DNA of 33,477 nt from positions 1-33,477 of the forward strand of contig JAITMX010000012.1 of NCBI GenBank assembly GCA_031290775.1, read 5' to 3'. The notes beneath the pieces were generated by a model that saw only the letters and a list, made by a program, of their open reading frames with translations, did not search any database and had not been told where the DNA came from. Positions 9,409 to 30,059 of the stretch are shown in pieces. The DNA comes from Eubacteriales Family XIII. Incertae Sedis bacterium. GTDB taxonomy: Bacteria > Bacillota > Clostridia > Peptostreptococcales > Anaerovoracaceae. A program made the position numbers and the translations under genes. Position 1 is the stretch's first letter, and every line of letters begins with the position of its first letter.

Positions 9409-10293
9409 TCACGCAAACTTCTCATTGAACGCGTCGACAAACTTCTTGCAATCCGCCGTCGCCTCCCACGCGTCCGGGCACTCGCAAAGGTCGATCGCCC
9501 ACCAGTCGCCCGCATAGCCGGCATCGAGCAGCGCGGGGACGACCTCGTCGAAATTGAGGGCGCCCTGCCCAAACGGCGCGTGCGTGCTTGTGTTCTCGCC
9601 GTTCAGCGTGCCGTCGCTGTCGATGACGTGCACAAAGCCGATCTTGCCCTTCAGCAAGTCGATAAATTCGAGAATGCCGCCCGCAAGCACGTCCGGCTCG
9701 ATGTGGTTGGCGCCCTTCGCCGCCGACATATAGCCGTGACAGGTGTCAAACAAAATCGAAAAATTCGGCTCATCAACTTTTTCGTAGGTTTCGAGGATGT
9801 ACTTCGGCTCGTTGACGATGAAACCGGGCTCAAACTCCCAGACCACCTGCTGGCCGTGCCGCGCGGCGTATTTCGAGATGCGCTTGAAATTGTCCGCGAC
9901 CTTGGCGCGCGCCTGCCCATACGTCCAGCCCTCCGGCAGGACGGGCGGCGCGCCCGTGTCCACGCGTATCGTCTTCCAGCCCATTTTGCCCGCGAAGTCG
10001 CTGCTTTCCTCAAAAAGCCCGATCCACGCTTCCGTCTGCTTCAGCGAATCGACGCTCCATAGGTCAACCGCGTAATCCGCGACTTCGAGGCCGTTGTCCG
10101 AGAGCAGCTTTGCGAGCTCGGCCCTTTTTTCGTCCGTATCCCAGTCCTTCGGCGCCGCGTGCGGCGCAAAACCGCCCATGCTGATCCCGTCAAATTTGAG
10201 CTCGGAGAGCTTTTTCGACGCTTCGGGAAGCAGGATCGGCGTCTCGAGAAAGGCGTACGCCCAACTGCCGATGCTTACTTTTTTCTTTGCCAT
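9409..10293 (-). CDS. Sugar phosphate isomerase/epimerase (xylose-isomerase-like TIM barrel)
   Basis: About 294 residues. I start at ATG 10293 (AAAGGAGA seven bases upstream); the 68 extra residues of the track ORF are translated repeat DNA. Probable metal ligands are the Glu of 'VWEFEPGF', the Asp of 'LFDTCHGYM', the His of 'GFVHVIDSDG' and the Glu in 'IDLCECPDAWE', the usual E-D-H-E set of this family. It probably isomerises or epimerises a sugar derivative. It is separated from the upstream epimerase gene by a 167-bp hairpin repeat, which may reduce or separate its expression. One of four related TIM barrels in the operon. Confidence 0.85.
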   Translation of the reverse strand: MAKKKVSIGSWAYAFLETPILLPEASKKLSELKFDGISMGGFAPHAAPKDWDTDEKRAELAKLLSDNGLEVADYAVDLWSVDSLKQTEAWIGLFEESSDFAGKMGWKTIRVDTGAPPVLPEGWTYGQARAKVADNFKRISKYAARHGQQVVWEFEPGFIVNEPKYILETYEKVDEPNFSILFDTCHGYMSAAKGANHIEPDVLAGGILEFIDLLKGKIGFVHVIDSDGTLNGENTSTHAPFGQGALNFDEVVPALLDAGYAGDWWAIDLCECPDAWEATADCKKFVDAFNEKFA

Positions 10294-10322
10294 ACCATGT
10301 TCTCCTTTTCTCTTCGCCTGTA

Positions 10323-10489
10323 GTCGTAGAGTGCCACGCGCTAAAGCGCTGCACTCCTGACAGACGTCCTGCCACGGTAGAGTGCCACGCGGCAAAGCCG
10401 CTGCACTCCTCGATGTGCGAGGTACAACGGAGCTGAAGCTCCTGTACCTCTGCCAACGATTCGCTTCGCGAATCGGGTTAGGACTGTCA
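10323..10489. repeat. 167-bp modular hairpin element (repeat locus B)
   Basis: It runs from GTCGTAG (10323) to GGACTGTCA (10489), the same ends as the 87-bp insert at 18793-18879. Modules in order are GAGTGC-CAC-GCGCT/AGCGC-T-GCACTC (10329-10356), GAGTGC-CAC-GCGGC/GCCGC-T-GCACTC (10380-10408), GAGGTAC-AAC-GGAGCT/AGCTCC-T-GTACCTC (10419-10450) and CGATTCGC/GCGAATCG (10457-10475). Its last three bases are the TGA stop of the epimerase gene on the minus strand. It lies within the operon between two genes, so its RNA would fold in the message. No coding content. Confidence 0.75.
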
Positions 10490-11341
10490 TTCCGCAAAAA
10501 GCCCCTTCAAAAACGGCACCCCGTCCCGCGCGATCGCCTCGGGCGATTCGGAAAACGGCCGCCACACCGATGCCGCTTTCGCAATCTCGACGCAGTCCGG
10601 CGTGAAAGACTCGATGATGCAATAATCGTCATATCCGACATCCCGAATCGCGTCGCGGATCGAAGCCCAGTCCGTGTTGTCCTTGCCCGGCGTCCCGCGG
10701 TTGTTCGCGCTCGTATGAAAATCGTAGATACGGCACTCCGTGCCCGCGAGCCGGATCGCGGCCGGCACATTGTTTTCCTCGATGCCCATATGGAAGCTGT
10801 CCAGCAGGAAGCCGACATTGCCATAGCCGATGCGGTGGATGTAGTCAACGCCCTGCTCGACCGTGTTGATAAAGTCGGTTTCAAAGCGGTTGAGCGTTTC
10901 GATGGCAAACTTGATGCCCTTCTTCGCGCCATAGTCCGCGATGATCTTCATGTTTTCGACGCCGTACTTCCACTTGAGCCCGACCTCATCGGGCGTTTGC
11001 TGCCTCGCCTTGCCGACAGCCGAATAAATCGGCCCCGCGATGACTTCGGCGCCGATCGCCGCCGCAAAATCGACCATGTCCTTCGCGTACCGGATGCCGG
11101 AATCCCGGAAATCCGCCTCGTCCGCCGAGATGTCGCGCACCTCGTTGTGGATGCCCGTGACGGTCTTGATGAGCACGCCCGTGTCCTCGACGGCCTTGTT
11201 GATCGCGTCCGGGTCGAGCGTGGAAAAATCCTCCAACGCAAGCTCGAAAATGTCGCAGCCGTATTTTTTCGCGAGCCGGAGCAGGCGGTCGATCTCCGTG
11301 ACGGGAGACTGCCAGGCGAGTGAATTGATCCCGAATTTCAT
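10487..11341 (-). CDS. D-tagatose/D-psicose 3-epimerase family protein
   Basis: 284 residues; AGGAGGG lies seven bases before ATG 11341. 'IETLNRFETDFINT' (147-160), 'LLDSFHMGIEENN' (179-191) and 'GPIYSAVGK' match the ketose 3-epimerase family (P. cichorii D-tagatose 3-epimerase, Agrobacterium D-psicose 3-epimerase). The metal set E148, D181, H209, E244 is complete and nearly co-linear with E152, D185, H211, E246 of the Pseudomonas enzyme. It should epimerise C3 of a free ketose in the cytosol. The stop codon is supplied by the end of repeat locus B. It follows the Gfo/Idh/MocA gene by 12 bases. Confidence 0.88.
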   Translation of the reverse strand: MKFGINSLAWQSPVTEIDRLLRLAKKYGCDIFELALEDFSTLDPDAINKAVEDTGVLIKTVTGIHNEVRDISADEADFRDSGIRYAKDMVDFAAAIGAEVIAGPIYSAVGKARQQTPDEVGLKWKYGVENMKIIADYGAKKGIKFAIETLNRFETDFINTVEQGVDYIHRIGYGNVGFLLDSFHMGIEENNVPAAIRLAGTECRIYDFHTSANNRGTPGKDNTDWASIRDAIRDVGYDDYCIIESFTPDCVEIAKAASVWRPFSESPEAIARDGVPFLKGLFAE

Positions 11342-18620: not shown

Positions 18621-18740
18621 TTGCAGTTCACACCCTAACCGTCATTGCGAGCGAAGCGAAGCAATCCAGTGGATAATGGATTGCTTCGGTTGCTGCGCAC
18701 CCTCGCAATGACGGCATTCCGGCAAGGGTCCGAACTGCAA
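18621..18740. repeat. 120-bp palindromic repeat (GTCATTGCGAG family, copy C1) with inverted ends
   Basis: The outer ends TTGCAGTTC (18621-18629) and GAACTGCAA are inverse copies. Inside, CCGTCATTGCGAG pairs with CTCGCAATGACGG, and GAAGCAATCCA pairs with TGGATTGCTTC around GTGGATAA. The GTCATTGCGAGCGAAGCGAAGCAATCC sequence belongs to a kind of interspersed palindrome found in many bacterial genomes. The left end ACCCTAACCGTCA also matches the terminal repeat of locus A. Confidence 0.7.
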
Positions 18741-18774
18741 CAACAGCGCCTCATACGCTGCACTCCTGGCAGAC

Positions 18775-18893
18775 GTGGTGCAACGGAGCTAAGTCGTAGA
18801 GTGCCACGCGCTAAAGCGCTGCACTCCTGACAGACGTCCTTCCATCGATTTGCTTGCGCAAATCGGGATAGGACTGTCAAGCTCCTGTACCAC
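18775..18893. mobile_element. Hairpin repeat interrupted by a nested 87-bp hairpin element
   Basis: The outer hairpin is GTGGTGC-AAC-GGAGCT-AA (18775-18792) and AGCTCC-T-GTACCAC (18880-18893). Between its halves lies GTCGTAG...GGACTGTCA (18793-18879), whose ends are those of locus B; it carries GAGTGC-CAC-GCGCT/AGCGC-T-GCACTC and GATTTGC/GCAAATC. Removing the insert restores GGAGCTAAAGCTCC, the exact stem-loop seen uninterrupted at 620-633. No target duplication is visible. Confidence 0.65.
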
Positions 18894-18894
18894 T

Positions 18895-19008
18895 GTCATT
18901 GCGAGCGAAGCGAAGCAATCCAGTGGATAATGGATTGCTTCGGTTGCTGCGCACCCCCGCAATGACGGCATTCCGGCAAGGGCCTGAACTGCAACAACAG
19001 CGCCTCAT
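18895..19008. repeat. 114-bp direct repeat of copy C1 (copy C2)
   Basis: Bases 18895-19008 match 18641-18754 with about three differences, 254 bases apart. The match runs past the GAACTGCAA end through CAACAGCGCCTCAT, so the last bases of the repeat include the stop codon of the SorE-like gene (minus strand TGA, 19005-19007). Its left terminal repeat is missing. It probably arose by local duplication or a second insertion. Confidence 0.75.
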
Positions 19009-20267
19009 CCGCATAGCCTCTTGCCATATTCAAGCAGATAACGCTCGGCGTCCACATTCCAAAGCCCATTGTGGGCCTGCACGCGCACGTCAAGTTCGGC
19101 GAAAAACGGGTCGTTTTCCCCCAAGGCGCCAAAGTCCGCGATCGCCGTCAGCGGCATGGACACGTGCGTGTAAATCAGCTTCTTGCCGCCGCCGATGCGC
19201 GGCATGTCCAGCGTCGCCTCCGCGGCGCTGTCGAGCCCCCCGACGTGCGTCACGAGGATGGCGGGGTCGATCCGGCCCGCTGCGGCCAAGGCGAGCGACT
19301 CGATCATGTCGTCCGTATTGCCGCCGCTCGTGCCCGCGATGTGCGTCGCGTTGTAATGGACATCGTAAAAATTGAAGGGCGCGGAAAAGGCCTCGTTTTC
19401 GGGGCCCGCAAAGAAATTGAGGCAGCCGTCGTAGGCAAGGATGGCGCCGCCCTGCTCGACGACGGCAGGCACGGGCGCAAACACAAAGACGTCGTCAAAG
19501 CCGCTGCCGCCGGAGAGCGCGCGCAGCGCCGCCTTTGGATCGTCCATCCCGCCCGTATTCACGTAGACGAGCTCGACGCCGTGCCGTTTCGCGTCCTCGG
19601 CGGGCAGCACTTTCCCCGCGCGCGCGAGCCGTCCCGCGTCGATGTCGGTCACGACAAGCAAGGACGGCCGTTCATCGCGATGGATCAGGTAGTCGAGCAT
19701 CGCCAGCCCCATCGGGCCGACGGCGGCGAGCGCGGCGGCCTTGCCGCCCGCTTTGATGCCCATGGCGTGCGTATATTCGCCGTGCACCGTATGGTAATTT
19801 CCGTGTACGGCGCCCGTCACGCAGGAGAGCGGCTCGACAAGCGCGCCGTAAAAGAAAGCGTCCCCCCCGTAGGGAAGCACGTAGCCGCCGCTGATGGCCG
19901 CGGCGGGGATGATGCCGTAGGTCATATCGCCGCCCATATACGGAAAGCTGTAGCCGATGGCGTCGTAGGTCTCTTTCATGCCGGTCTGTATGACAAAGCG
20001 CATGCCGGGCGCGTATTTGCCCCGCCATTTCGCGCCAACCTCCACGATCTCGCCGCAAAACTCGTGCCCGAGCACGGTCGGGTTTTCGGCGACGTCCGCG
20101 GGTACGCGTTTGTGGCCCGGCCCCTTTTGGGCCGCTTTGTACGAAGACATGCACAGGCTGTCGCAGACGAGTTTCACAAGAATCTCGTCGTCCCGGATGG
20201 GCGGCAGCTCGAAAGTCTCGAGCCGGACATCCTTTTTTCCGTATAGCCTGAGCGCTGTCGTTTTCAT
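19005..20267 (-). CDS. SorE-like L-sorbose-1-phosphate reductase
   Basis: 420 residues from ATG 20267; the 42 extra residues of the track ORF overlap the preceding gene in another frame. The start has only a weak GAAAGAAAG site. 'MKTTALRLYGKKDVRLETFELP', 'DSLCMSSYKAAQKGPGHKRVP', 'PTVLGHEFCGEIVEVG', 'GYSFPYMGGD' and 'GALVEPLSCV' follow the enteric SorE protein closely. SorE reduces L-sorbose 1-phosphate to glucitol 6-phosphate. The zinc-dehydrogenase catalytic residues are present, but the four-cysteine structural lobe is not, as in SorE. Last gene of the second operon. With the SrlD-like SDR it could link sorbose-, sorbitol- and fructose-phosphates. Confidence 0.87.
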   Translation of the reverse strand: MKTTALRLYGKKDVRLETFELPPIRDDEILVKLVCDSLCMSSYKAAQKGPGHKRVPADVAENPTVLGHEFCGEIVEVGAKWRGKYAPGMRFVIQTGMKETYDAIGYSFPYMGGDMTYGIIPAAAISGGYVLPYGGDAFFYGALVEPLSCVTGAVHGNYHTVHGEYTHAMGIKAGGKAAALAAVGPMGLAMLDYLIHRDERPSLLVVTDIDAGRLARAGKVLPAEDAKRHGVELVYVNTGGMDDPKAALRALSGGSGFDDVFVFAPVPAVVEQGGAILAYDGCLNFFAGPENEAFSAPFNFYDVHYNATHIAGTSGGNTDDMIESLALAAAGRIDPAILVTHVGGLDSAAEATLDMPRIGGGKKLIYTHVSMPLTAIADFGALGENDPFFAELDVRVQAHNGLWNVDAERYLLEYGKRLCG

Positions 20268-29853: not shown

Positions 29854-29863
29854 ATGAGCAACA

Positions 29864-29980
29864 GTAGAGTAGATGCTGTGCGTCAAGTGCTGCGGGATGG
29901 GATGTTGCCCGCAGACGAAGAGCAGCTCTCCCAAAAGCTTTGGGGGGCGGCGGCTCGCGGTGCGGTATCGCGTTCGCTAC
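29864..29980 (+). promoter_or_regulatory. Class I tetrahydrofolate (THF) riboswitch aptamer
   Basis: The conserved THF-I blocks occur in order: GAGTAGATG, GCGTCAAGTG, a CTGCGGG/CCCGCAG hairpin with loop ATGGGATGTTG, ACGAAG, a long extra stem (CCCAAA/TTTGGG) and CGCGGTG. P1 is GTAG (29864-29867) with CTAC (29977-29980). P2 is TGCTGT with GCGGTA using wobble pairs, and TCGCGTTCG corresponds to the known TTGCATCCG joint. It binds reduced folates and precedes folT, a common target of this class. The track ORFs over it are not genes. Confidence 0.88.
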
Positions 29981-30059
29981 GCACTGATGCGAAACAGGCT
30001 TTCTTCCGGACAATCAGTGCAGGTGGACCTGCCTTGCGATTTAGAAGGAGGTTTTTTTT
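29981..30059 (+). promoter_or_regulatory. THF riboswitch expression platform
   Basis: Several exclusive hairpins are possible. GCACTGAT (29981-29988) pairs with ATCAGTGC (30013-30020). GCAGGT (30019-30024) pairs with ACCTGC (30027-30032). ACCT and CCTT (30027-30035, one bulged G) pair with AAGGAGGT (30045-30052), which buries the ribosome site and is followed directly by eight T residues. The last looks like both a ribosome-site mask and a terminator; the second would prevent it. How the aptamer selects among them is inference. Confidence 0.55.

Follow-up and report, generated by a model that had tools for sequence, protein, structure and literature searches.

The DNA analysed herein (the window) is a 33,477-nt stretch, contig C206 of a Family XIII MAG (2.3 Mb, 85.8% complete, 211 contigs) from a genus of which four genomes were compared. 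A THF riboswitch (RF01831, 71.5 bits) lies at window positions 29863-29981. The window carries several copies of a short palindromic unit that comes in two types, distinguished by their tips: type A (G[TC]CGTAG...GTCA) and type B (CGGTAG...GCCA, GCAA or GCGAA). The composite on which we focus spans 119 nt and comprises an outer hairpin, the loop of which is occupied by a type A unit:

18775-18792, + strand: 5' arm and half-loop of the outer (host) hairpin, GTGGTGCAACGGAGCTAA, read directly
18793-18879, + strand: inserted type A unit, 87 nt, GTCGTAG...GGACTGTCA, fold z = -5.8; hairpin 1 (18793-18831, foot GTCGTAG), an A, hairpin 2 (18833-18878), and a final A
18880-18893, + strand: 3' arm of the outer hairpin, AGCTCCTGTACCAC, read directly

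An earlier note, made from the letters of this DNA, had claimed that removing 18793-18879 restores the loop seen at 620-633, and direct reading confirms this: excision yields GGAGCTAAAGCTCC, identical to 620-633, a sequence that occurs about 18 times in the genome sequence (the outer hairpin in its uninterrupted form being GGAGCTRAAGCTCC). Folded as single-stranded DNA, the insert alone forms two adjacent hairpins (with the z-score listed above), and the entire composite forms one nested structure (z = -7.1). The insertion point within the GGAGCTAAAGCTCC loop can be shifted by one base, an A. A relative (G191) has loop insertions that read GCGGGC^A-CGGTAG..TGCC^TTGACCCGC (carets mark joins throughout), and these suggest that the A lies to the left of the unit. 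Around the composite, a CGTC-type palindromic repeat (TCATTGCGAGCGAAGCGAAGCAATCC...CGCAATGACGG) occurs twice, at 18638-18758 and 18892-19012 (121 nt at 96%, spacing 254 bp), and this direct repeat pair suggests that the cluster was duplicated in tandem.

The same note had matched the ends of the insert to those of a 167-bp element at 10323-10489. The ends do agree (on the + strand, the first 43 bases and the last nine, GGACTGTCA, are identical), but the element is a nested unit, not a longer version. Specifically, it consists of an 86-nt type A unit, the closest undisturbed copy of which is found at C55:1877 (L024), with an 81-nt type B unit inside it at CCTGCCA^ACGATTCG. A third type A unit, at 432-671, hosts two type B units, one in the loop of hairpin 1 and one in hairpin 2. 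The parts of these two composites are as follows:

10323-10374, + strand: left part of the type A unit that hosts the nested type B unit; joins 10456-10489 to give the 86-nt unit
10375-10455, + strand: nested type B unit, CGGTAGAGTGCC...CTCTGCCA; excision restores a sequence found elsewhere
10456-10489, + strand: right part of the type A unit, with end GGACTGTCA; site empty in congeners G001 and G002
432-445, + strand: left tip of the third type A unit, inserted 3' of CCCTAACCGTCA
446-527, + strand: type B unit (subtype with end GTCCGCAA) in the loop of hairpin 1, GAGTGCCA^...^CGCGGCAAAGCCGC; from the excision test
528-566, + strand: host type A unit resumed (end of hairpin 1, first part of hairpin 2); from the excision test
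567-646, + strand: type B unit (CGGTAGAGCGCC...CTCTGCCA) in host hairpin 2 at CCTTCCA^TCGATTTG; from the excision test
647-671, + strand: host hairpin 2 resumed (TCGATTTGCTTGCGCAAATCGGGAT)

The final TCA of the unit at 10323-10489 (10487-10489) is the complement of the TGA stop of a sugar-isomerase-like gene (10487-11341, - strand).

A family of two-hairpin units

About 47 stretches of the genome match the 87-mer, many of them full length and 91-100% identical and many partial, and nested, broken, and truncated copies are common. A covariance model recovered 33 copies in Emergencia timonensis, 41 in G057, and 9-11 in each of several genomes that are 98-99% complete. The copies are dispersed in the source genome, E. 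timonensis, and G057, and their location was intergenic where checked (at the three sites in the window and at a small number elsewhere). By a pattern scan of named genomes, the family occurs in Clostridiales Family XIII (Anaerovoracaceae), mostly in Family XIII MAGs, and also in E. timonensis and other Bacillota MAGs. Under stricter filters and at E <= 1e-6, the covariance model had zero matches among 148 genomes from the class, the source genome excluded, and searches of plasmid and phage records likewise gave zero matches. In viral contigs the hairpin-1 pattern was unmatched, and the 17-nt hairpin-2 motif gave two weak pattern matches.

The stems vary between copies while the pairing is kept. 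When 18 copies drawn from several genomes were taken together, pairing held in 95.8% of cells, versus 80% in shuffles, and compensatory changes were seen at 17 of 28 base pairs; the two-sided changes include the final pairs of hairpin 2 (GAC/GTC, GGG/CCC, GCC/GGC). GTAG stands at the palindrome foot, as CCGTAG or CGGTAG, in nearly all copies, with CCGTC in a minority of those from E. timonensis. Hairpins lie at both ends of the unit, and terminal inverted repeats are absent. The best label is a new GTAG-tagged, two-hairpin REP-like family in Bacillota.

Rfam models, run on the window and on seven copy-bearing loci, had no match to the unit; their only hits were the THF riboswitch of the window and, in another Family XIII MAG, a DUF3800-XI RNA (RF02975; L122, 6575-6622, - strand) near two head-to-tail type A units. 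Tandem arrays containing hairpin pairs were observed at L224 (G192:C1:141600-143200, period of about 199 bp) and, in E. timonensis, at L138 (1168-1580, about 194 bp). Two near-identical loci on contig C8 of the E. timonensis genome G215, at about 60.7 kb and 88.9 kb, each carry an identical unit pair and are probably a segmental duplication.

Constant ends and exact empty sites

The nesting is not a chance match. The loop position GGAGCTRA^G[TC]CGTAG is filled seven times in the source genome, by the flagged insert and six others, and all of the inserts are different. Several of these insertions are independent, because the stems of the inserts differ (AGTGC, AGCGC, AGCCGG, GGGCGCC). Units of a similar kind occupy GCGGCTAA^AGCCGC loops and the join of CCGTCA^ to TTGCGAG; the latter site is empty at window 18635-18650.

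A mechanical excision test, in which 55-330 nt were cut from the unit start and the joined 18-mer was sought elsewhere, restored an existing 18-mer for 27 of the 142 candidates, and successes peaked where the cut coincided with the unit start, although offsets -3 to 0 share microhomology of the ends and some of the 27 represent alternative cuts of one repeat cluster. Given that the 18-mer test alone gives some chance matches in coding DNA, only cases with an internal hairpin unit were used. Exact filled/empty pairs emerged from this test in three other genera: GTCATTGCGGGC^80 nt^TTGACCCGCAATC and GCGGCC^81 nt^TCCGAGCCGC in G191, GCGGCT^80-81 nt^GAAGCCGC in G110, and CGGCTA^88 nt^AAGCCGC in G057. 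The pairs lack a target duplication, and the unit ends are constant within each subtype.

Where a flank and a right end have 2-5 nt in common (TGCCA, for instance), those bases belong to the unit, as its constant right end, and are no copy of the target. Nor is the unit a MITE of a DDE transposon, the ends G[TC]CGTAG and GTCA not being inverted and the filled/empty pairs being without duplication.

The flanking genes are in the same order in the congeners G001 and G002 as in the source genome. Between the genes at 9409-10293 and 10487-11341, both congeners carry a short spacer only and the 167-bp unit is absent; G002 reads CCCGTCA^TCCCGC across the join, versus ...GTCA^TTCCGC in the source genome. 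In G003 (L189), a different hairpin repeat (GTCATTCGCCGG...) occupies the spacer orthologous to window 10294-10489. The region at 18.5-19.1 kb corresponds to about 0.2 kb in G001 and G002, where the entire repeat cluster is absent; the flagged cluster is therefore lineage specific, and the inner insertion is not dated by that alone. Synteny with G001 and G002 stops short of the 432 site, and no orthologue was obtained there.

Judged from these comparisons of sequence, the insert is a discrete mobile unit. The earlier note had proposed just such a unit, entering hairpin loops without target duplication, and had reasoned that variable ends in other copies or a lack of empty sites in relatives would speak against it. 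The gathered copies instead have constant ends within subtypes, and empty sites exist both in G001 and G002, for the unit at 10323, and in the pairs from other genera.

Target choice

The targets end in CA, TA, or AA. The base at -1 is A in all 16 distinct flanks from G057 (GTCA in 14), in 10 of 10 from G191, and in 10 of 11 from G110. The left flanks in E. timonensis vary and are not limited to CA, with at least four copies lying in ATTT/AAAT hairpin loops. GTAG units also insert at or within CGTC-type hairpins, and the 3' ends of two genes, one for tmRNA (L132, near 5596) and one for tRNA-Pro (L131, near 3053), are the exact starting points of type B units. At the latter two loci, the first A of the unit preserves the CCA. 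An IS608-style guide code did not predict the CA and AA sites and was discarded.

Search for a mobilising enzyme

For the mover, the earlier note had looked to a RAYT/TnpA-REP or IS200/IS605-type enzyme encoded in the genome. This part of the proposal fared less well. Searching with PF01797 (Y1_Tnp) alone, the only trace in the source genome was the 3' fragment of an IS200-type TnpA, broken by an internal TAA stop and located at a contig end (L001 1-230, G000:C83). The same search detected no Y1_Tnp (RAYT/IS200) gene in E. timonensis, with its 33 copies, in G159 and G192 (98-99% complete, nine copies each), or in the copy-rich MAGs G057, G110, G191, and G158 (67-77% complete). Conversely, when the covariance model was run against 33 loci, nearly all with Y1 genes, it gave zero matches; no unit adjoined any Y1 gene examined, and none lay beside the RAYT-like gene or the IS200 TnpA gene of G002. 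A parent IS with the same ends that encodes a Y1 HUH transposase was not found, although MAG gaps could hide one in some of the genomes. Because the ends of MAG contigs frequently fall in these repeats, a repeat-flanked gene could drop out of MAGs, though not easily out of the E. timonensis assembly.

Y1 insertion into the lagging-strand template predicts a strand bias. A hand count of orientation against GC skew in E. timonensis, a modest sample, gave none (about 20 with, 13 against). Most carrier genomes, a cultured one among them, lack the expected single-strand transposase.

How the units may move

The units are discrete, nest in one another, lack target duplications, are missing from congener sites, and retain a conserved two-hairpin structure. 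Their anatomy is REP/IS200-like, with a GTAG-footed hairpin, no duplication, and CA sites. The best explanation of the whole, to which we give an even chance, is that the insert represents an 80-88-nt mobile element that is non-autonomous, is built of two adjacent hairpins, and would be moved as single-stranded DNA by a Y1/HUH-type transposase acting in trans. Specifically, hairpin 1 carries the GTAG motif at its 5' foot, and hairpin 2 closes the unit with a cleavage-site-like (G)TC or GCC, followed by A. The unit joins DNA just 3' of a short site (GTC^A, GCC^A, GGC^, CTA^A) that is similar to the right end of the unit, and this site is not duplicated. Hairpin loops and the edges of other palindromic repeats are frequent sites, so that units nest within units. 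The enzyme may recognise the unit via its hairpins, with GTAG as a guide, as proposed for REPs, and may have been lost, may lie within unassembled DNA, or may be too divergent for detection.

The hairpin ends, the GTAG foot, the absence of duplication, and the right-end-like join sites are what a Y1 single-strand transposase would be expected to give. Three further predictions of such an enzyme were not borne out: a Y1 gene, units flanking a Y1 gene, and a strand bias. An enzyme of this class that is lost or hidden stands as the likeliest single answer, at about one half.

A possible but tentative alternative is that the units are mobile and their mover is not a Y1 enzyme, being instead a hairpin-specific recombinase, a nuclease-plus-ligation process, or reverse transcription of an RNA copy with joining at loops. 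The lack of detected Y1 genes in E. timonensis and in near-complete relatives argues for such a mover, as do the structure-directed insertion into loops of differing sequence and the exact insertions at the tmRNA and tRNA-Pro gene 3' ends; the compensatory changes equally fit an RNA. Against it, the search, by PF01797 only, produced no candidate enzyme, an enzyme class is already known in other systems for the GTAG foot and CA-type sites, and the E. timonensis copies look old, so that the enzyme there may simply be gone. The fuller claim, that Bacillota harbour mobile hairpin pairs that use loops as insertion sites and depend on a mover outside the Y1 (IS200/RAYT) class or on an RNA copy, we regard as rather doubtful.

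It is improbable that existing palindromes became nested without transposition, whether by recombining with one another, by template switching, or by tandem duplication. The 121-nt direct repeat at the locus and the tandem arrays in relatives are in keeping with such events, as is the pairing of some right junctions (TGTCA^AGCTCC) with different left partners. However, in several genera, and where the surroundings are single-copy, inserts that are independent and different have exactly the same joins on the left and on the right, and constant ends are not expected from template switching; the independent clean insertions largely refute this reading. Very improbable is a unit that is mainly a structured RNA or terminator module under functional retention, its mobility secondary or ancient, which would suit the strong compensatory changes and the intergenic, 3'-of-gene placement but not the lack of an Rfam match in the window or the seven loci, the many nested, broken, and truncated copies, or the lineage-specific sites.

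Relation to known elements and significance

The units invite comparison with several known systems. First, like GTAG REPs and their TnpA_REP/RAYT partners (REPtrons), they have a short hairpin with GTAG at its 5' foot, are present in many copies (intergenic where checked), form clusters, and join at CA/CT-type sites; TnpA_REP of Marinomonas cleaves at CT or CA, guided by GTAG (PMC8266576). They differ in that the unit is composed of two dissimilar hairpins, nests in loops, occurs in Bacillota, and lacks a RAYT both nearby and in the genome of E. timonensis. Second, they share with IS200/IS605 elements and their transposase-less derivatives (PATEs) subterminal hairpins at both ends, the absence of terminal inverted repeats, the absence of target duplication, and the joining 3' of a short site that resembles the right end, although flanks in E. 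timonensis vary. Unlike IS200/IS605, no parent IS with these ends was found, most carriers are without Y1, there is no strand bias, and the ends lie at the hairpin feet.

Third, the fungal mitochondrial GC clusters (double-hairpin elements) are likewise short palindromic units that merge and shuffle, in yeast with no known enzyme and a putative target duplication (AG) (PMC4478555), whereas the present units belong to a bacterial chromosome and use strict loop and CA-type sites. Fourth, palindromic repeats serve as insertion sites for autonomous IS that target REPs, including IS1397, IS621, and others (PMC1525189); those elements carry their own transposase genes, while the insert described here is itself a hairpin pair of 80-88 nt. 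Finally, CGTC-tagged REP-like palindromes (CGTCATTGCGAG..., GTCATTCCCG...) occur in the same genomes, likewise with no known enzyme, and differ by acting as targets: units occupy their loop or abut their 5' edge. The open-access full texts searched described no GTAG unit that has two hairpins and nests in loops.

Arguments on how REP-like palindromes spread have relied mostly on the association of these repeats with RAYT genes. Here, short two-hairpin units in a gut bacterial family have repeatedly inserted, scarlessly, into loops, both each other's and those of other hairpins, and the nested, datable insertions and exact empty sites make the unit ends and targets directly readable. The family also belongs to a phylum outside the list of the main survey of GTAG and CGTC repeats, which placed these two REP superfamilies in eight phyla and the text of which names neither Firmicutes nor Clostridia (PMC3733652). 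If the copy-rich strains are truly without a Y1 enzyme, another mover of short hairpins must exist. If one is found, the guide-like foot and the end-like stem, with its co-changing GAC/GTC, GGG/CCC, and GCC/GGC pairs, would make target choice testable.
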